IMG/VR virus record: IMGVR_UViG_3300020596_000002
Span: 1-43,546 of that record
DNA from: a virus
Length of the DNA: 43,546 bases
Direction: 5' to 3' (one strand)
Part shown: positions 1,572 to 43,546 of the stretch, piece by piece
Position numbering within the stretch: position 1 is the stretch's first letter
Layout: every line of letters starts with the position of its first letter
Program-made: the position numbers and the translations under genes
Notes under the pieces: model-generated
Database searches by the model: none
Seen by the model: only the letters and a program-made list of their open reading frames with translations
Told to the model about the DNA's origin: nothing

Positions 1572-4500
1572 ATGGCTGATATCGTATCGCAGGATTTCGT
1601 TAATAAGTATTCCATACAATATGATGCAACTGCCAATGCTACTGGAATAGGGGAAAAAGCATTTGGAGCCGTTGCAGCTACCATTGCTGCTTTAGGGGTT
1701 AATACGTTTAATTCCCTCGTCTCAATTCCTGAATTCATCCCCTTTGTTGGTATTCATGGTATTGGCGTGAGTAATAGTTCCGGTATTGACATGAGTAAAT
1801 CAACAATAGATACCTATGAAACTTTAGCAGGAATCAATGATAATTGGGCTAATGTATACGCTGATAACAAAGACTTCGTAGAAACTGCCGCGTTTATTAC
1901 TGGCATCATTATACCCGCTGGCATTGCGCTAAAAGGTATGCGCTTATTGCAGGCAGGCAGGCTTGGCATGTACGCTAGGGCTGGATTAGACGATTATTCT
2001 CAATTGAAGCGAACCAGCCAATACTGGGAAGCATTGCAATACGCGCCAAAGAATAAGCTTCTTCAAGACAGTATTCGGCGCAAGATGTTATTCGTTAATG
2101 TAGGCCAAGAAGCTAGTCTAGCTCTTGGCATGGAAGTGGCTATTCTTGCGACACAGAATCAATCCATTCTTATGGAAGATTATATTCGTGACCCAGGTAA
2201 GAATATTCTTCTTGGTATGATTGGCGGTGGAGGTGCTTTTGGCGCAGGATTAGCAACTGTAAGTATAGCTCTTGGCCAGATAGCTATTAGAAGCTCATTA
2301 GCTAAAGGTGCAGCTGAGATAGTAGAACGAGCAATAGACGACACGCGTAAGTTAGCTGGTGCAACGCTCCCAGTTAATATTTCCTATATAGATGAATATC
2401 AGCGCATGACATATAAAGCCAGTGAGCTTAGGAATTATGCGACTAACGATGATAATATTCCATTACACAAAGAACTTGCTGCATCACTCGCATCTGTCAT
2501 AGAAGGAAAAGCCGGTAAGCTGCTGACCGACAATATTCATTCGCCAGAATTAAAGAATTGGCTAGATGCTAATAGAACTACGCCTGATGGCATAGAAACT
2601 ATGAAGGTAATCAACGGTCTTATTAACTTTTCGGGTACCTGGGGAGGAAATACTATTGCTCGCCCAACATTTGATCTTAAAACACTGAATACTGCTACGG
2701 CAAAAAATTTCAATTCTGCTGTTACTATACAAGAACGTGTTGATGCCGCTACGAGTGTTGGTTTTGCCGATGAAGTTCTCAACGCAGTAGGGCAGAAACT
2801 TGGTGTTAGGCCAATATATATGGGGTTATCTACTAAACCTGCATACATAGCGTCGCTTACAGGTGGAAAAATAAATTGGCATCATATACAAATGCCAAAC
2901 ATAAGTGACCAAGCATATAGGGTTAAATATGGGCTGAGTACAAACAGTGTTCTAGCTCATGAATTAGGGCACGCTGTTGCACAAGCAAATAATCTTAACA
3001 GCGAGCTTACTCTACAGACGCAATTAGCTTTACGTAAGGAGTTAGAACCCCTGTCCAAAAGCTTCAAGCCTAAAATATGGGATCGTGGACCACTCTATGC
3101 TGGTCTCGGCAGGGAATTAATTGCCGATGGTGTGGCTATATGGATGCTTGTTCCGTCTGTGCGTAAGAAGATGCCACTATTCGCAGCGCATATTGGTGAG
3201 GCCGTTGCTTATGCGCAATTCGATACTCTAGCTTCGAACATAACACGCGAATTACGTAAGTTAGCAATGGATAAAACATCATTAGCAATTAGTAAGGTAT
3301 ATCAAGCAAGTCCAAATTGGGGTGGTATGCCTTCTACAGTTATTAATGATACGAATAAAAATACCGGACTAGAGAACCTTACTACTTATTATTCTCCGCT
3401 TTTTAAGGCTTATGCCAGCAAGGAAGATATAACGCAGGTGCTTCGCGCGGTAGATATTGGATTCATTAAACCGCAATATATACAATCAATAGGGCGTCTT
3501 GGGTCAGACGCTGATTTACAATTGCTTAATCGTAAAGCTTCTCCCGGATTTATAGATGCACACTATATTAACGCGCTGCATACTGTGAATACATATAGGC
3601 ACAATGGCGAAGTATTTATTCCTACTGATGATATTGCTGTAGCGCAAGCTTGGTATAGCCGTCTGTCTAAAGATCTTGCCAATGGTATACCCACTAAAAT
3701 CAAGCTTACTACTGTTCCTACTGTTGTTGATGGTATTTCACAGAGTGCTATTAAGTCTAGTTCCAAGGAAATTTCCCTGGAAGAACTTAAGCAACATATT
3801 GTGACTACCAAAGGCGACTATCTTGCCGGACTTCTCAAGGCTGGAGCTTCATCGCAGGAAATGAGTATTAGGTTGAATCTACCCATGGATAACATTAATG
3901 CGATTATTGCTCAAGGCAAGCGCATTGACGAGGTAGGTGATATCGGTACTTATGTAAATCCTGCGCATATTCAAGATGCCTACATGTCTCAAGCTAATAG
4001 AGTATTAGCGATATCTTCCAACGCGCGTAAGCTTATGAGCAGTAAATTGCGCGGTCCTGATAACGCGGCTATCTTTGATACAGAGGCTATCCAGCTCGCT
4101 AATTCTGAGATTGTAGATGTTGTTATGTCATCCAGTAAAAGTACTTTGGGCCAAGCAATTTATAAGAGAATTCTTAGCGATAAGGATTCCTGGGATATGA
4201 TTAAGGAAGCTGTAGGGCAAATCAGCAATGAGAACGTCGGCGCTATCATGATAAATAGTGCAGACTTCTATTTGCGCCGTCTAGGTGTTGCTGGAGAAAG
4301 AATGGCAGTGCTTGGGCAGGAGACTACGCATACGCTCAATAGTACTAGTTCAGATATTCTTGCGCCTTCTGCTGCTATGCTTCGCGCGTTTAAAAGCACA
4401 TTAGCAGGACGAGAGGAATTTAATAGGGTGATCAATATCCTAAACGGTACTGGGGGTTATCGTAATATTGATGGGAATGGAAAGTTATATAAAACAGCCA

Positions 4501-18094: not shown

Positions 18095-18453
18095 GGTGTA
18101 TCTCCTTTGTCAGGTACTTCTATATTTAATACTGTTACTGCCGTCATAACAAAATTTACTTTAATTCTGGCGGTACCATCTGTGTCATCTCTTGATATCA
18201 GGGTATATTCTATTTTCCTATCATCAACAGGTTTTCCCACTTTCCTATCTCTTTCATTTGTTTGATATTTTGCATTACTTACACCTTTGCGCAAAGTATC
18301 GAATTGATCCTCCGAAAACGTAATTATCACATTATCCACATCTTTCAGTAAGTTATAGATACTTTGGAAAGACATTCTTTCCTTTTTTATTTCCACTGGA
18401 TCATCATCTTCGACATCGATAATGTTTTTGTATTCACCGTCGATAATGTCCAT
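18091..18453 (-). CDS. Hypothetical acidic protein, 120 aa
   Basis: The N-terminus is acidic (DGEYKNIIDVEDDDPVE). The C-terminal half has beta-strand-like repeats (IEYTLISRD, ARIKVNFVMTAVTVLNIEV). I do not recognise a family. The start lies in TAATG, sharing a base with the sigma-factor stop, so the two are likely translated together. A sigma-associated regulator is one possibility, based only on coupling. Confidence 0.65.
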   Translation of the reverse strand: MDIIDGEYKNIIDVEDDDPVEIKKERMSFQSIYNLLKDVDNVIITFSEDQFDTLRKGVSNAKYQTNERDRKVGKPVDDRKIEYTLISRDDTDGTARIKVNFVMTAVTVLNIEVPDKGDTP

Positions 18454-19073
18454 TATATATAATCCTTCACGTTAACTTTCTCTGTTTTCGTCATGCGATA
18501 CTTTATTAATTCGTATGTTGAATTTATTATTTGTTGTACTCTTTGTCGTGATATCCGGTATCGTTCCGCTATCTCATTATGCGTTAGTTCTTCGTAATCA
18601 AATAGTGCATGAGCGTGAAACAATATCTCAAGATGGTGCAGTTTTATGCCATGGCATGCGCAAGATAAGACTTTTTCTATGTCTACTTGCGCCCTATTAA
18701 TATCACCCATGGAATTATCCGGCGGAATAATATCAACGTCGTCGTCACGCTTGTTATCTATGGACAGCATATTAATTGGATATTGCATATCCCTACCATC
18801 AGCCCATGGGTATTCAGATAATTGAAGTTTAGTTAGTTCTCCCCGCATTTTCCAGTAAGCGAAAGTTAGGAATTTATTTTCTAATTCGGGCTTGAATTCC
18901 TTTATTGCCATTAATATGCCTATGTTGCATGCCTGTTTTCTATCTTCCTCCGGAATGATTTTAAAATTAAATGAATTGACTAATTTAAATATCATTCCAC
19001 TGTGGCGTTTTATTAATGCGGCGAGTGCCTGTTCTTTATATTCCGCTATTAATTCTTCGTCTGATATTTTCAT
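18453..19073 (-). CDS. Phage sigma-70-like factor
   Basis: The protein is 206 aa. A region 2-like block spans residues 17-85, with DRKQACNIGILMAIKEF followed by FLTFAYWKMRGEL, the aromatic -10-recognition helix typical of sigma factors. A region 4-like helix-turn-helix lies at about 161-193 (LTHNEIAERYRISRQRVQQII). It should bind host core RNA polymerase and direct it to phage promoters, probably the late rightward unit, since no phage RNA polymerase is seen. ATG 19073 overlaps the helicase stop. The linker (residues 90-135) is shorter than in housekeeping sigma factors. Confidence 0.85.
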   Translation of the reverse strand: MKISDEELIAEYKEQALAALIKRHSGMIFKLVNSFNFKIIPEEDRKQACNIGILMAIKEFKPELENKFLTFAYWKMRGELTKLQLSEYPWADGRDMQYPINMLSIDNKRDDDVDIIPPDNSMGDINRAQVDIEKVLSCACHGIKLHHLEILFHAHALFDYEELTHNEIAERYRISRQRVQQIINSTYELIKYRMTKTEKVNVKDYI

Positions 19074-21352
19074 TCTTCTTCTCCTTCAAGTAATTCTTCG
19101 CTGTTTATAACGATAGTCCAATCATTCATTAATGCGCGTGCTGTTGTTACCCAATTGGGCAACATTGGGCCACTGTAATATTGCTTAGGTTCTTGTTGCA
19201 TTAAACGCATTGCCATTTCCCAATCTTTGCCATGGCCTGTCATATTCACATATCGTGCAGTTATTAAATGGCAAATTTCGTGTATTACAGTTTCATTGCA
19301 GATATATGAATATAATTCGGGCTGTTTTGCGGAAAGATAAATTGGATTCAATTTTATTTGATGATATTTTGGGATAGCTAATCCTATAGTCTTGCCTCGT
19401 TGACAATCAAATGTCAAGCTTGGGTAATCACCTAATACGTCGCCCCATATTCTTTTGGCAGAATCCCAATGTTTTATGAGATTACTTTTTGCCAATTCCT
19501 TTACGTGCAATGGTACATATTTTTGAAAGTCTGTTACGGTACAAGATCTAACTTCAATTTTTTCTGGCATATTTAATGCCGGTTTTTTCTGTTCTATTAT
19601 TATTTCGTCCGGTTCGCCTAAAGGTGCCCATTCACCCGGCTTTATGACTGGATAACTACTCATATCGACAGTAGCTTTAGCGTTAATATGTGCTATTTTT
19701 TCTTCTAACGTCTTGCCACGGATTATTTGATTATCTACTGCTTTTTGTAGTATTTTTTCTGTTGCTATATAACAGATTTTTTCTCTCGCCCTAGTAGTCG
19801 CAGTGTATATCCATTCTCTGGAAACGAAACTACCTTTTGTAGCGTGTTCTTCGTGCAAAAGAATGAATACTTTGCGCCATTCTGATCCTTGCGCTTTGTG
19901 GCAGGTAGTAACGTATCCTAATGAGAATCCTGCGGGACTAAAATCTCCTGCTGTTTGCAATTGATATTCTTCGTCCGGCGTATCTTCTGCTAATTTTTCC
20001 GCATATTTATATGTGATTATTGCACTGGCCTGATTTTTTCTTTCATCATCTGCCACGTCATCGACGTTAATATCGGCATAACCTGTTAATTCCATATGCG
20101 CTTCGATGTCATGATTGGCATCTTTTGATTCTGCTGCACGATAAAATCCAGTTCGCAACAAATTTTCTGATGCGATTTTAGTACTGCGTCCGGCATAACC
20201 CGGATTGTGCATAATATTTGTAATGATGCACAAATTCTTATCTACTAGGATAAGGTCGCCTTTTGCAAGATAAATATTGCGCCTACCTGCAATTATCTCA
20301 TGCACGATCACTTTTCTTTCATCGCCCATAAATTGCGCTATCCAGTTATTCATCGCTTTAGTTCCCATCTCCTGTTCATTCCACGGAGATAAGATAGCGT
20401 CTGTTAATGGATCATAATCGCCTTTTATGTGTCTTTTCTGAAAGAATCCTCCAGCTTTCCCTAATGCCATTCCAGCACGTGATTGTGACATTTTCTTTGT
20501 TTTTACTTCATCCCACCAGATTATTTCAGTGTCTTTATTCTTAACAGGTATTTTACCGTCTAGAATATTCCATGCGTTTTGCAATACGCCAGAATCATCG
20601 GCTTGGCGATATATTTTAGTTAATTCAATCACTGGTAATTGGTGTAATGCAAAATTGAATATGCTTTTCCCAAATACTGGCGGTAATTGATTAATATCAC
20701 CGATGAATATTACGATAGTACCGGGAAGCATTGCAGCATAGAGTTTTTCATATAACAATAAATCGCACATCGGTGCTTCGTCAATATTCAGTATCTTGAA
20801 TGAAAATGGTCTATTCTCATTCCGTGTTTCAACAAACCGCATCTTATTTTTGCCGGTTTCGATATCCTCATAATATTCTGGTTTAAATTCTAGGTGTTTA
20901 TGCAATGTTTGTATGCACGTCGATACTTGCTTAAACAGTTCTGTATCGCGTGCTAAAGCTTTCCGCGTATTGCCTGTTGCTACACGCGTTAGCGCACCGA
21001 TCGCTATATGGCGCGCTGGATGTCCCATATCTAACAGCGCTTTAAAAATTGCTCTCTCAAGCGTTGTTTTACCGGTTCCTGCTGCGCCAGTTATAACAAA
21101 TGACACGCCTTTTTTTACCAGTTCAATTGCTGCTAATTGTGATTTATCCAGCGTTATATTCAAGCTGAATGTTTGTTCTTGTCTTACAGATACATTTTCA
21201 ACAATGGGAATAGGAACAGAGTCTGTGCTTAATTCCTTTTTTTGTTTAAAATCGCTGATAATTCCTAACCGCTCTCGGATAGGAATATTGCGCCAATCGG
21301 CACTCTCTTGCAGCGCCTTTAAATCTGGGTACTTTATTGCCAAGTTATGCAC
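19070..21352 (-). CDS. SF1 helicase (RecD/Pif1-like) fused to SprT-like metalloprotease
   Basis: The protein is 760 aa. Helicase motifs: Walker A GAAGTGKTT (89-97, K95), Walker B NIDEAP (D191, E192), GDINQLPP (218-225), LTKIYRQ (244-250), TTCHKAQGSEW (482-492) and TATTRAREK (517-525). From about residue 625 a SprT-like domain follows, with HEICH (691-695) and GHGKDW (H707), the zinc ligands of SprT/Spartan proteases. Spartan enzymes degrade proteins crosslinked to DNA, and Pif1/RecD helicases translocate on single-stranded DNA. The fusion could unfold and digest roadblocks ahead of replication. GTG 21352 is the likely start (AAAGGA about 8 bases upstream). Confidence 0.9.
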   Translation of the reverse strand: MHNLAIKYPDLKALQESADWRNIPIRERLGIISDFKQKKELSTDSVPIPIVENVSVRQEQTFSLNITLDKSQLAAIELVKKGVSFVITGAAGTGKTTLERAIFKALLDMGHPARHIAIGALTRVATGNTRKALARDTELFKQVSTCIQTLHKHLEFKPEYYEDIETGKNKMRFVETRNENRPFSFKILNIDEAPMCDLLLYEKLYAAMLPGTIVIFIGDINQLPPVFGKSIFNFALHQLPVIELTKIYRQADDSGVLQNAWNILDGKIPVKNKDTEIIWWDEVKTKKMSQSRAGMALGKAGGFFQKRHIKGDYDPLTDAILSPWNEQEMGTKAMNNWIAQFMGDERKVIVHEIIAGRRNIYLAKGDLILVDKNLCIITNIMHNPGYAGRSTKIASENLLRTGFYRAAESKDANHDIEAHMELTGYADINVDDVADDERKNQASAIITYKYAEKLAEDTPDEEYQLQTAGDFSPAGFSLGYVTTCHKAQGSEWRKVFILLHEEHATKGSFVSREWIYTATTRAREKICYIATEKILQKAVDNQIIRGKTLEEKIAHINAKATVDMSSYPVIKPGEWAPLGEPDEIIIEQKKPALNMPEKIEVRSCTVTDFQKYVPLHVKELAKSNLIKHWDSAKRIWGDVLGDYPSLTFDCQRGKTIGLAIPKYHQIKLNPIYLSAKQPELYSYICNETVIHEICHLITARYVNMTGHGKDWEMAMRLMQQEPKQYYSGPMLPNWVTTARALMNDWTIVINSEELLEGEEE

Positions 21353-22765: not shown

Positions 22766-22990
22766 TCAGGCCTCAACAGAACTATAAACACTGTCGCAAT
22801 AATTGCAATGATTACAATAATAGCAAAGAATGCTATTATTGCACTGCGGGCAATTGCTGTTATTGCATTCATTGCTATTATTGCTATTATTGCAATAACA
22901 GCAATTAATGCAATTATCGCAATTATTGCAATTAATGCAATTAACGCATTCGTCGTTATTTGCTGTTATTGCGAATTTAAATATTTTCAT
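22766..22990 (-). CDS. Cysteine-triplet-repeat protein 1 (degenerate, 74 aa)
   Basis: This is the last of five paralogues in the direction of transcription. It begins MKIFKFAITA like the others but lacks the KGNSSYS..SQ..A leader segment. It then runs into Cys-x-x-Cys repeats (VNC INC NNC DNC INC), several with Ser replacing Cys (NNS) and one phase slip (NCPQC). AAAGAGG precedes ATG 22990, one base after the stop of paralogue 2. Deletion of the leader and loss of Cys suggest decay or a divergent role. Function unknown. Confidence 0.65.
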   Translation of the reverse strand: MKIFKFAITANNDECVNCINCNNCDNCINCCYCNNSNNSNECNNSNCPQCNNSILCYYCNHCNYCDSVYSSVEA

Positions 22991-22991
22991 C

Positions 22992-23384
22992 TTATGCCTC
23001 TTTTTTTAATTCGTAATAATTATTCCGTGTGCTATAATTATTACAATTATAGCAATTATCACATTTATCGCAATCATTACATTGCTCACAGTTATAGCAT
23101 TCTATACAATAATTGCAATTATTGCAATAATAGCAATACCAACAATAATTGCAATTAATACATAAATTAGCATCATCGCAATTGCGACAATTAGTGCATT
23201 GACGACAATTAGTGCAGCAGATACACTTATAACAATGGCGACAATTAATACATTCAATGCAATAACGGCAATTAATACAGCCATTATCATCCAAAAATTG
23301 TGCATTCTTTTCCGCCATGTCTTGCGAAAAATTGGAATAGGAGGAATTGCCTTTTGCTGTGATTGCGGAAGTATAGAGTATCAT
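22992..23384 (-). CDS. Cysteine-triplet-repeat protein 2 (130 aa)
   Basis: ATG 23384 (MILYTSAITAKG) is the start: AAAGGAAA lies upstream, within the stop region of paralogue 3, and the conserved leader begins here. The longer open frame upstream reads antisense-like repeats of the neighbour. After SAITAKGNSSYSNFSQ and LDDNGC there are about 26 triplets of the form x-x-Cys (INC RYC IEC INC RHC), with Asn or an aromatic residue common before Cys. The C-terminus (NNYYELKKEA) leaves the repeat. Strict three-residue phasing suggests a regular rod or solenoid, with metal or disulfide chemistry possible. No known family recognised. Confidence 0.75.
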   Translation of the reverse strand: MILYTSAITAKGNSSYSNFSQDMAEKNAQFLDDNGCINCRYCIECINCRHCYKCICCTNCRQCTNCRNCDDANLCINCNYCWYCYYCNNCNYCIECYNCEQCNDCDKCDNCYNCNNYSTRNNYYELKKEA

Positions 23385-23385
23385 T

Positions 23386-23808
23386 CTATGTTTCCTTTTG
23401 ATTGCAAAATTTACAATAATTGCATTTATCGCATTTGCTGCAAAATTCGCAATAAGTACAATAATGGCAACTACCGCAATAATGGCAAAATTCGCAATAA
23501 TTGCAATTGCCACAATAGGTACAGCTAATGCAATTAGCACAGATTTTGCAATTGTGGCAATAATCACAGTTATCGCAGTCGTCACAATTACGGCAGCAAT
23601 AGCAATTACGGGAATTGTAACAGTTTATGCTATTGGTACAATCTTTGCAATAACTACAACTAGTACAATTAATGCAATTAATGCAATGAATGCAATTGGA
23701 ACAGCCATTATCGTCCAGCACTTTTGCATTAACATCTGCCATTTCCTGTGAAGTGTAGGAATAGGAGGAATTGCCTTTTGCCGTTATTGCGGATCTAAAC
23801 ATTTTCAT
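23386..23808 (-). CDS. Cysteine-triplet-repeat protein 3 (140 aa, longest array)
   Basis: ATG 23808 follows a GGAAAGGAAAGGAA tract. The leader is MFRSAITAKGNSSYSYTSQ, then VLDDNGC. It is followed by 33 consecutive triplets, 31 ending in Cys and two in Ser, with no phase error. The second triplet position shifts from mostly Asn early to mostly Tyr/Phe late (EFC HYC GSC HYC TYC). The stop is followed after one base by the start of paralogue 2, so the two are co-translated. The protein has no other domain. Confidence 0.78.
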   Translation of the reverse strand: MKMFRSAITAKGNSSYSYTSQEMADVNAKVLDDNGCSNCIHCINCINCTSCSYCKDCTNSINCYNSRNCYCCRNCDDCDNCDYCHNCKICANCISCTYCGNCNYCEFCHYCGSCHYCTYCEFCSKCDKCNYCKFCNQKET

Positions 23809-23837
23809 TTCCTTTCCTTTCCTTATTGTACTGCGAA

Positions 23838-23887
23838 TAGTATCTATCCTCATGCCCACATTATTATGGGCATGAGGATAGATACTA
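23838..23887. repeat. 21-bp perfect inverted repeat between paralogues 3 and 4
   Basis: Arms 23838-23858 and 23867-23887 are perfectly complementary around an 8-base loop, with core CCTCATGCCCA / TGGGCATGAGG. The right arm covers the stop codon of paralogue 4. No T-tract follows in the leftward direction, so this is probably an RNA processing, attenuation or stability hairpin, or a DNA-level cruciform. It shares the CATGCCCACA core with the hairpin at 24306-24335. Confidence 0.8.
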
Positions 23888-24166
23888 CGTCATGCAATTG
23901 GTACAATAGTTGCAATTACTACAATTGTGCCTATTATCGCAATTGCTACAATAGGTACAATTGCTACAATAGGCACAATTGTTACAATTGGTGCAATTGG
24001 TGCAATTGGTGCAATTGTAACAACCAATGCAATTGCTACAGTTAATGCAGTCGTGGCAATTAATACAGCCATTATCATCTAGATATTGTGCATTCTTTTC
24101 CGCATCATCTTGAGAGATGAATGAATAGGAGGAATTGCCTTTAATCGTGATTGCGGAAGAGTACAT
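23885..24166 (-). CDS. Cysteine-triplet-repeat protein 4 (93 aa)
   Basis: ATG 24166 (MYSSAITIKG) follows AAAGGAAA. After the leader SAITIKGNSSYSFISQ and LDDNGC come 20 phased triplets, 18 of them with Cys as third residue (INC HDC INC SNC IGC YNC TNC TNC TNC). Asn is the usual residue before Cys, and one triplet has lost its Cys (DNR). Including the leader Cys there are 19 Cys in 93 residues. The protein is secreted-signal-free and so presumably cytoplasmic, where thiols would be reduced and could bind metals. Function unknown. Confidence 0.77.
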   Translation of the reverse strand: MYSSAITIKGNSSYSFISQDDAEKNAQYLDDNGCINCHDCINCSNCIGCYNCTNCTNCTNCNNCAYCSNCTYCSNCDNRHNCSNCNYCTNCMT

Positions 24167-24214
24167 TTTTCGTTTCCTTTGGTTTGGTTGTGAATAGTTT
24201 CGCATCGTCCTATC

Positions 24215-24304
24215 TATTAACTATAATCCAGTCTTTTCGACGATTTCGGCAAATTTTCCGGGATTTTCGCCAATTTCGCCAATTTCCCCGGATTATAGTT
24301 AATA
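24215..24304. repeat. 15-bp inverted repeat enclosing a 60-base structured spacer
   Basis: Arms 24215-24229 (TATTAACTATAATCC) and 24290-24304 are perfect reverse complements. The spacer has tandem TTTCGCCAA copies and several GG/CC patches, so it may fold into a multi-branch RNA. It lies between paralogues 4 and 5 with no gene. A small RNA, a leader or a recombination site is possible. Confidence 0.7.
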
Positions 24305-24305
24305 A

Positions 24306-24335
24306 TCCCATGCCCACAATTGCGCAGGCATGGGA
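24306..24335. repeat. Hairpin related to the one at 23838-23887
   Basis: Arms TCCCATGCC (24306-24314) and GGCATGGGA (24327-24335) surround a 12-base loop. It shares CATGCCCACA in the left arm with the hairpin after paralogue 4. It is followed by a purine-rich tract with tandem GGAGAT (to about 24357). Its position immediately downstream of paralogue 5 suggests that the hairpin duplicated together with the genes. Confidence 0.65.
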
Positions 24336-24358
24336 ATGAGGATGGAGATGGAGATGGG

Positions 24359-24613
24359 CTACTCTGGCTCGTCGCAATTTATTGCATTGCGATATCCTGT
24401 GCGATCGCTGCAATTATCGCAATTGACACACATGATACAATTGCTACAATTGCCGCAATTGTGACAGTAGCGACAATTGCGGCAATTGACACACATGATG
24501 CAGTCCACGCATCCAGCAGCGTCCAGAGCTTCCGCCCTGGCATCTGCCGTCATTTGGGATATGTGGGAAAAAGATGAATTACCTTTTGCTGTGGTCGCTG
24601 AATAATACAACAC
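24359..24613 (-). CDS. Cysteine-triplet-repeat protein 5 (84 aa, first in the leftward unit)
   Basis: GTG 24613 is the likely start: AAAGGAAA lies 5 bases upstream and the leader YYSATTAKGNSSFSHISQ begins here. An in-frame ATG at 24661 has no ribosome site. About 15 triplets follow (VDC IMC VNC RNC RYC HNC GNC SNC IMC VNC DNC), then the array degenerates (SDR TGY RNA INC). It is the first gene after the control region, so it should be among the earliest transcribed genes. It shares leader and array architecture with the four genes downstream. Confidence 0.72.
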   Translation of the reverse strand: MLYYSATTAKGNSSFSHISQMTADARAEALDAAGCVDCIMCVNCRNCRYCHNCGNCSNCIMCVNCDNCSDRTGYRNAINCDEPE

Positions 24614-24720: not shown

Positions 24721-24793
24721 TTTTGTGATCGCAGGCCCATTGTACCGGCCAATCGGTCGGGACGCAAGACAAGCCTATCGGCCGATCGCACGC

Positions 24794-25145
24794 TCGCAGG
24801 GCCGCTCAATCACTCAATCCAGGGGGGCGGAGTAGGTCCCGGGTAGGCCCAAATCCGTTAGCATCCATCAATCAGGGTGATGATGGCTAGATATGCCGTA
24901 AGTGTTTGCAATATCTGATTCATGGGTCGTTGTAGAGAGCAAAATTTAAAAAAAAAAAAACAGAGATATTCTTTCGTGTCAAGCACTTTTTTTTGCTCTG
25001 GACATACTGCGTATACATATACCTGCCATAGCCGTACCCTATCGGGATACTAGTTGGCATAGAGTATCCCGGATTTGGGGCGGGAATCCGGCATGCCTCC
25101 CCCCGTGGATTGGCTGGTTGAACGATCGGTTGAGCGGCCCTGCGA
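24794..25145. repeat. Long-range 16-bp inverted repeat
   Basis: TCGCAGGGCCGCTCAA (24794-24809) is the exact reverse complement of 25130-25145. The two arms bracket about 320 bases of the control region. Related CGCAGG and GGCC(A/G)AT words repeat beside both arms. It could close a large RNA domain or mark the ends of an inserted or invertible segment. Confidence 0.6.
25043..25091. promoter_or_regulatory. Pair of overlapping, mutually exclusive hairpins
   Basis: Hairpin 1 pairs 25043-25051 (CGGGATACT) with 25063-25071. Hairpin 2 pairs 25069-25075 (CCGGATT) with 25085-25091. Bases 25069-25071 belong to both stems, so they cannot form at once. That arrangement is typical of attenuators and switch-like leaders. 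It lies about 300 bases before the rightward first gene. No known riboswitch recognised. Confidence 0.45.
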
Positions 25146-25228
25146 TCCTGCGATTGGCTATGAAAGTGTCGAAATATCGTCACTAGATACTGATTGCTAT
25201 TTCGCCTAGCGATGCAGACCAAAAAATA

Positions 25229-43344: not shown

Positions 43345-43546
43345 ATGGCTGATAATTCAAAAGTGTCGCGGGTAGGAAACACATTCACTAATATGGATGA
43401 CGTCCTTACAAATTTAATCACAGGCAGCACTATAACTAATATGCCGCAGGTTCCAGCTGAGATAGAAAGCGGTACAGGCTTCTTTACTAATACCCGTACA
43501 GGAAATGTAACAGCGGTAGGAACTCCGAGTAAGAAAACATTAGCTC
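43345..43546 (+). CDS. Internal virion/ejection protein, N-terminal part (continues at 1..1551)
   Basis: ATG 43345 (MADNSKVSRVGNTFTN) follows GAGGATAAAACAAA. The frame runs off the window end and continues in the same frame from position 1, because position 43420 equals position 1. The full gene is 541 codons. See the entry at 1..1551 for the body of the protein. Confidence 0.9.
   Translation, partial: MADNSKVSRVGNTFTNMDDVLTNLITGSTITNMPQVPAEIESGTGFFTNTRTGNVTAVGTPSKKTLA
43420..43546. repeat. Terminal direct repeat, right copy
   Basis: This is an exact copy of bases 1-127. It is the second copy of the assembly overlap or terminal repeat described at 1-127. Confidence 0.9.

Follow-up and report, generated by a model that had tools for sequence, protein, structure and literature searches.

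A family of phage cysteine-triplet-repeat proteins, likely small beta-solenoids, with relatives in cultured Campylobacter phages

What kind of protein places a cysteine at every third residue, and what would a virus gain from encoding five of them side by side? The question is raised by region 22766-24613 of the window, by which we mean the whole 43,546-base virus record that was analysed. The region is filled by five minus-strand open reading frames, g1 to g5, whose number, direction and lengths (Table 1) agree with those given in an earlier note on this DNA. Proteins with 20 to 45 cysteines spaced exactly three residues apart are unusual in a bacterial cytoplasm, where such a protein must avoid wrong disulfides and metal poisoning.

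The window codes for terminase, portal, polymerase, helicase and sigma factor and carries a 127-base direct repeat at both ends (1-127 and 43420-43546), so that it probably represents a complete circular assembly. g1-g5 are the first genes of a leftward unit that also carries the helicase, the polymerase and the sigma factor. The helicase (19070-21352, minus strand) is of the SF1 type (AAA_19, UvrD_C_2) and fused to an SprT-like metalloprotease domain, and the phage-encoded sigma-70-like factor (phrog_351, Sigma70_r4) lies at 18453-19073 on the same strand. A 29-nt inverted repeat, 90% complementary with arms 320 nt apart (24781-24809 and 25130-25158), is located in the divergent intergenic region and is a possible origin or regulatory site. 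Two further inverted repeats separate g1 from g2 and g2 from g3; the hairpin between g2 and g3 has a predicted energy of -39.3 kcal/mol (53-nt strand, 23838-23890), the one between g1 and g2 resembles it (GGGCATG type), and both could be RNA processing or stability elements.

Table 1. Array genes and intergenic inverted repeats in the window.
Feature	Position	Strand	Description
g1	24359..24613	-	84 aa, GTG start; leader and x-x-Cys array, 13 Cys in 16 slots
g2	23885..24166	-	93 aa; leader and array, 19 Cys in 20 slots
g3	23386..23808	-	140 aa; leader and array, 32 Cys and 2 Ser in 34 slots, longest run 23
g4	22992..23384	-	130 aa; leader and array, 26 Cys in 27 slots; protein used for modelling
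g5	22766..22990	-	74 aa; leader cut down to MKIFKFAITA; array with a single phase break
Inverted repeat g1-g2	24215..24304	-	15-nt perfect arms, 60 nt apart; long predicted hairpin
Inverted repeat g2-g3	23841..23886	-	near-perfect; RNA hairpin of about 23 pairs, no T run

AAGGAAA-like ribosome-binding sites are found upstream of each of g1, g2, g3 and g4; the g1 site reads AAAGGAAA. As described earlier, four of the proteins share a leader, SA(I/T)T(A/I)KGNSS(Y/F)S..SQ..A......LD..GC, which aligns without gaps from SA(I/T)T through GC in g1-g4, and g5 retains only the first residues. The arrays that follow are built of triplets with S/T/A/I/V in the first position, D/G/N in the second and Cys in the third. 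In g1-g4, 90 of 92 cysteines lie in a single phase (13/13, 19/19, 32/33 and 26/27, respectively), which was equalled by none of 20,000 shuffles (p<=5e-5 for each gene). The strict three-residue phase proposed in the earlier note thus holds for these four genes but not for g5, whose cysteines split into groups of 8, 6 and 1 by phase (shuffle p=0.16). Near NNSNCPQC g5 lacks one residue, and with its leader lost and its phase broken once, the gene has the look of decay and is probably a decaying copy. The longest unbroken runs comprise 12, 15, 23, 14 and 7 triplets in g1 to g5; the count of up to 33 in a row given earlier was too high, the two Ser of g3 interrupting its array. Replacement of Cys by Ser and Arg, also reported there, was found at the slots of g1-g4, but the list was incomplete, as Ala and Tyr occur too. 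The triplets are diverse and their codons mixed; the use of both TGT and TGC for Cys and of both AAT and AAC for Asn indicates that the constraint acts on the protein and not on a simple DNA repeat. Between the leader paralogues of the window, dN/dS is about 0.13-0.3 where dS is defined. All five proteins end with the array, without a C-terminal domain of the GCF/GCR/CRAGW type.

The five proteins match PHROG 15341, a cluster of unknown function (E-values of 8e-7, 6.8e-9, 2.5e-7, 7.7e-11 and 2.8e-4 for g1 to g5), and so does every relative tested. PHROG 15341 is a sequence cluster only, without described structure, function or period, and many of its members have another type of leader, W.D.NNN.W. 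The earlier statement that no characterised family could be recognised is therefore right as to function, but the proteins do belong to an existing cluster and have relatives in cultured Campylobacter phages. A Pfam search gave no match at E<=10 for the window proteins, including none to pentapeptide repeats. For g4, a zinc-finger identity was rejected, its PDB matches (best E 7e-4, ZZ domains) being attributed to Cys content. Searches of phages by tblastn with the window proteins or other full-length members returned no match, probably because the low-complexity filter masks the array; the queries that worked were leader-only and C-terminal pieces. No description of the family was found in literature on Cys at every third residue, CXXCXXC phage repeats and Cys-rich solenoids, which is weak as proof of absence.

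With a DNA pattern of leader plus four phased Cys, 28 IMG/VR viral contigs were found to carry leader and array. Their family proteins (alignment A1) share MRYxSxxSPxGNRSxSxxSQAEADARCKALDxAGC followed by the array, the conserved positions being GN.S.S..SQ..A......LD and C, and the profile of this alignment matches g1 with an E-value of 4.0e-30. Copy number reaches five in L275 (one with a stop) and is two in L277, L280 and L284; some relatives have extra C-terminal domains. A second leader type, W.D.NNN.W...S.EEA..AS.TL..C, precedes equal arrays in L015, L020, L026, L027, L046, L072, L075, L077 and L105, and the members tested also match PHROG 15341. Both leader types have a common register; their hhalign comparison was not significant (probability 3%, P 0.013), and on sequence grounds their homology is not proven. 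The family is absent from relatives of the virus with about 40-47% terminase identity, which suggests that it is dispensable. The leader pattern was met in none of 793 genomes from two phyla, the profile matches obtained in six cellular genomes look like simple repeats, and a bare scan for TGY at every ninth nucleotide in viral and cellular contigs mostly retrieved 9-nt microsatellites.

Two other kinds of Cys-rich protein were observed alongside these. In L275 (4367-5191) and L280 (4935-5723) the array genes are adjoined by another Cys-rich repeat protein with 22-27 Cys, which starts MKIYTQSDFDALP and MRTFTQAEFDALP, respectively, and has no Pfam match. In the actinobacterial genomes L133, L171, L192 and L211, N-terminal repeats of small residues (SAGVAGSVAT) lead into an x-x-Cys array that ends in CSGL(R/T)G-like motifs; these proteins may be a cellular triplet solenoid.

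Cultured carriers are provided by 17 Campylobacter phage records, in which the relatives are annotated only as hypothetical. The proteins of the group II phages (IBB35, CP220, CP21, CPt10) have a leader and a strict x-x-Cys array like those of the window, while the letters of the leader differ; most of these genomes contain two or three array copies. The best viral structural match of the g4 model is H6SUK4 from Campylobacter virus IBB35 (E 1.6e-7), named a 'Caib/baif family protein'. IBB35 holds two array proteins, AEF56835 and AEI88196, and H6SUK4 is identified with the former by phage and equal length (141 aa); its CaiB/BaiF name appears unfounded. The Campylobacter phage genome papers searched do not discuss the proteins as Cys repeats. 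In most records opened, one orthologue lies between a helicase and a phosphoesterase-like gene, and array genes are placed beside replication genes in L280 and L284 (by eye) as well as in the Campylobacter phages. Flavobacterium phage FL-1 (L290, KY421186.2) also contains an array, at 2609-3313; the annotated CDS follows a different frame (MVVGIAPVAS...), and ahead of a CRAGW domain the reading frame is broken, so that the deposited annotation is probably wrong.

The Campylobacter phages show what is held constant. Among six distinct orthologues of 141 codons, the 28 phase positions (26 Cys, 2 Ser) have undergone no nonsynonymous change, with up to 10 synonymous changes per pair, and well-diverged pairs have a dN/dS over the whole gene of about 0.08-0.23. 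Counted over 45 arrays, Cys occupies 1182 slots and other residues 23, 13 of these being Ser, and the phase nearly always survives indels and substitutions. Selection on the period, as suggested in the earlier note, is borne out by these values, obtained from Campylobacter relatives of the other leader type; they differ from the dN/dS near 1 and random loss of phase that the note had set against it. The family is real, under selection, widely shared and uncharacterised, and it probably falls with phage solenoid proteins rather than standing without relatives.

To which fold the period corresponds was addressed with two AF2 models of moderate confidence, one of g4 (model 1, mean pLDDT 71.5) and one of L105, which has the other leader type (model 2, mean pLDDT 73.9), with pTM values of 0.55 and 0.42. 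Both display a hairpin-helix cap (pLDDT 87-95), followed by a bridge at each third residue along the entire array. The top VIA match of model 1 is the Tenebrio antifreeze protein (1l1i; Z 5.4, 80/84 residues, rmsd 4.1), which ranks seventh for model 2 (Z 3.5); the Z values remain below 8 throughout for both models, and Foldseek found nothing in the PDB at E<=0.001. Among the proteins that the L105 model matches in BFVD are pentapeptide and hexapeptide solenoids of phages. A repeat block with a C-terminal domain of the GCF/GCR/CRAGW type is present in L105, L075, L263 and L020, and the GCF-type domain of L105 and L075 recurs in GenBank phages after pentapeptide repeats (L291, L296; EBPR siphovirus 1, Listeria phage B025) or hexapeptide-like repeats (L292-L295; BF766P1, phiAGATE, phiRM10, MA9V-2). 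Given the two models, the antifreeze match and the C-terminal domains of other solenoid proteins, the array is likely to fold as a small beta-solenoid, one of the shapes that had been suggested; the other, a polyproline-II bundle, was dropped because the models contain beta bridges instead. Right-handedness and 12 residues per turn are read across from the match to the antifreeze protein. Matches of the same residue are most frequent four triplets apart (z 4.3 for the first and 2.3 for the second triplet position), but this signal is gone once the count is limited to matches whose codons differ, and may thus come from 36-bp duplications. In second place among the structural matches of either model stands a giant-virus 'TNFR-Cys' protein (BFVD A0A5B8IEK9, Mimiviridae ChoanoV1), which indicates that the design may extend to eukaryotic viruses.

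The explanation towards which we lean, with somewhat better than even confidence, is that of a modular phage beta-solenoid with a Cys core that serves as an accessory binding protein of the early region. The leader would form the N-terminal cap, with its hairpin and helix, and not a cleaved peptide. The array would form a slender beta-helix, right-handed, in which one turn takes up about four triplets (12 residues) and length varies by whole triplets; the first residue of each triplet (Ser/Thr/Ala/Ile/Val) would lie in a strand, the second (Asp/Gly/Asn) in a turn, and the third, Cys or occasionally Ser, would face inward and line the core. In a reducing cytoplasm, we infer, the main part of Cys would be that of a small residue that can be stacked in the core, disulfides or soft-metal binding being possible as well. 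Function would then reside in the outward residues, by which a rigid rod would bind a target from host or phage. The rod would be produced from the early or replication region and diversified by gene copying into paralogues that vary in length and surface. The replication/early position and the patchy presence fit a dispensable, host-directed accessory; an early role in host takeover or anti-defence, as the earlier note had it, is compatible with the position only.

The main rival keeps the same rod and gives it another purpose, namely a thiol or metal store of the kind known from copper storage proteins, in which a Cys-lined tube would take up numerous ions per chain (Cu(I), Zn or Fe-S) and buffer metal or oxidants in the infected cell. 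The 26 to 32 inward thiols that the predicted model sets in line in each chain would suit such a store, and so would the Campylobacter phages, which keep all Cys and two Ser positions while the surface residues drift. We nevertheless consider it unlikely: the core is narrow in coils like those of TmAFP, here and there in the family Cys gives way to Ser or one of a few other residues, and inspection of the genes beside g1-g5 showed no metal transporter, chaperone or Fe-S gene. A bolder version, a new minimal class of beta-solenoid with a nearly all-Cys core, four per coil, acting as a cytoplasmic thiol/metal wire or store that alters the metal or redox state of the host, seems rather improbable. 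An outward-facing alternative is a DNA mimic or target decoy like the gyrase-binding pentapeptide proteins, whose acidic rod surface would block a host or defence enzyme. It draws on the C-terminal domains common to the relatives and phage pentapeptide proteins, on the early/replication-region location and on the strongly acidic arrays of many relatives (up to -2.4 charges per 12 residues); since the window arrays carry almost no net charge (-0.5 to 0 per 12 residues) and PADLOC, a library of defence rather than counter-defence, gave no match, we judge it distinctly improbable for these genes.

The earlier note had also been reminded of ribosomal peptide precursors, and here the array does resemble heterocycloanthracin, which has a conserved leader, a Cys-Xaa-Xaa core, in-phase tripeptide indels and modifying enzymes encoded at a distance from the precursor (Haft 2009, PMC2674419). 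Like this and the other thiazole/oxazole precursors of the TIGR03601 group (heterocycloanthracin/sonorensin), the window family combines a leader with a Cys-Xaa-Xaa array and in-phase indels, which a host or phage enzyme might modify. The bacterial pattern scan yielded precursor-like proteins (L128, L207, L221), TIGR03601 gives L272 a weak score (E 0.077; 13.6 bits, where the cut-off is 35), and Campylobacter group II phages encode 11-12 radical SAM proteins (PMC2853527). Against a thiazole-peptide precursor, YcaO was detected in 0 of 29 virus records, of which several are fragments and in which positive controls were detected, though a host enzyme is possible; NCBIfam gave no relevant match for the window proteins, TIGR03601 included, and no bacteriocin model above cut-off. 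Asp, Asn, Arg and Tyr are frequent before Cys, several members have additional C-terminal domains, and the leader is predicted to be a structured cap, so that we regard a precursor as highly improbable. That the genes have no protein function and are 9-nt microsatellites open by chance is barely credible. Pure 9-nt repeats, translated as SGC SGC or GPC, are indeed numerous in the collection scans; the window triplets, in contrast, are diverse, the leaders are conserved and dN/dS is low in relatives. A pure microsatellite is refuted for g1-g4 by the codon and dN/dS evidence and still possible for g5.

Should the predicted Cys-core rod prove real, it would rank with the simplest known solenoids, with one triplet as its building unit, and the 'hypothetical proteins' of a cluster that BLAST misses through low-complexity filtering would become a named, testable family. 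The cultured carriers (CP220, CP21, IBB35 and Flavobacterium phage FL-1) open the family to experiment now.

Among known solenoids, the pentapeptide and hexapeptide proteins of phages share with relatives of the window family the C-terminal domains and the modular layout; they differ in a five- or six-residue repeat and a Leu/Phe or aliphatic core, against a period of three here, and the five-residue repeat A(D/N)LXX does not occur in the window proteins. The Tenebrio antifreeze protein is secreted, with two Cys per coil engaged in disulfides and a Thr-Cys-Thr ice face, whereas a coil of the window arrays is predicted to contain up to four Cys, the position before Cys is taken by Asn/Asp/Gly, and a TCT ladder is absent: in the arrays counted, D/G/N/S precede Cys and Thr does so only three times. 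In the Tenebrio molitor protein, every coil of 12 residues turns C2, S5, C8 and A11 inward (PMC8038014). This beta-helix (1EZG/1L1I), with an inward residue at each third position and a core of Cys and Ser, has a period identical to that of the window arrays, whose cysteines, according to the predicted model, would point inward in the same way.
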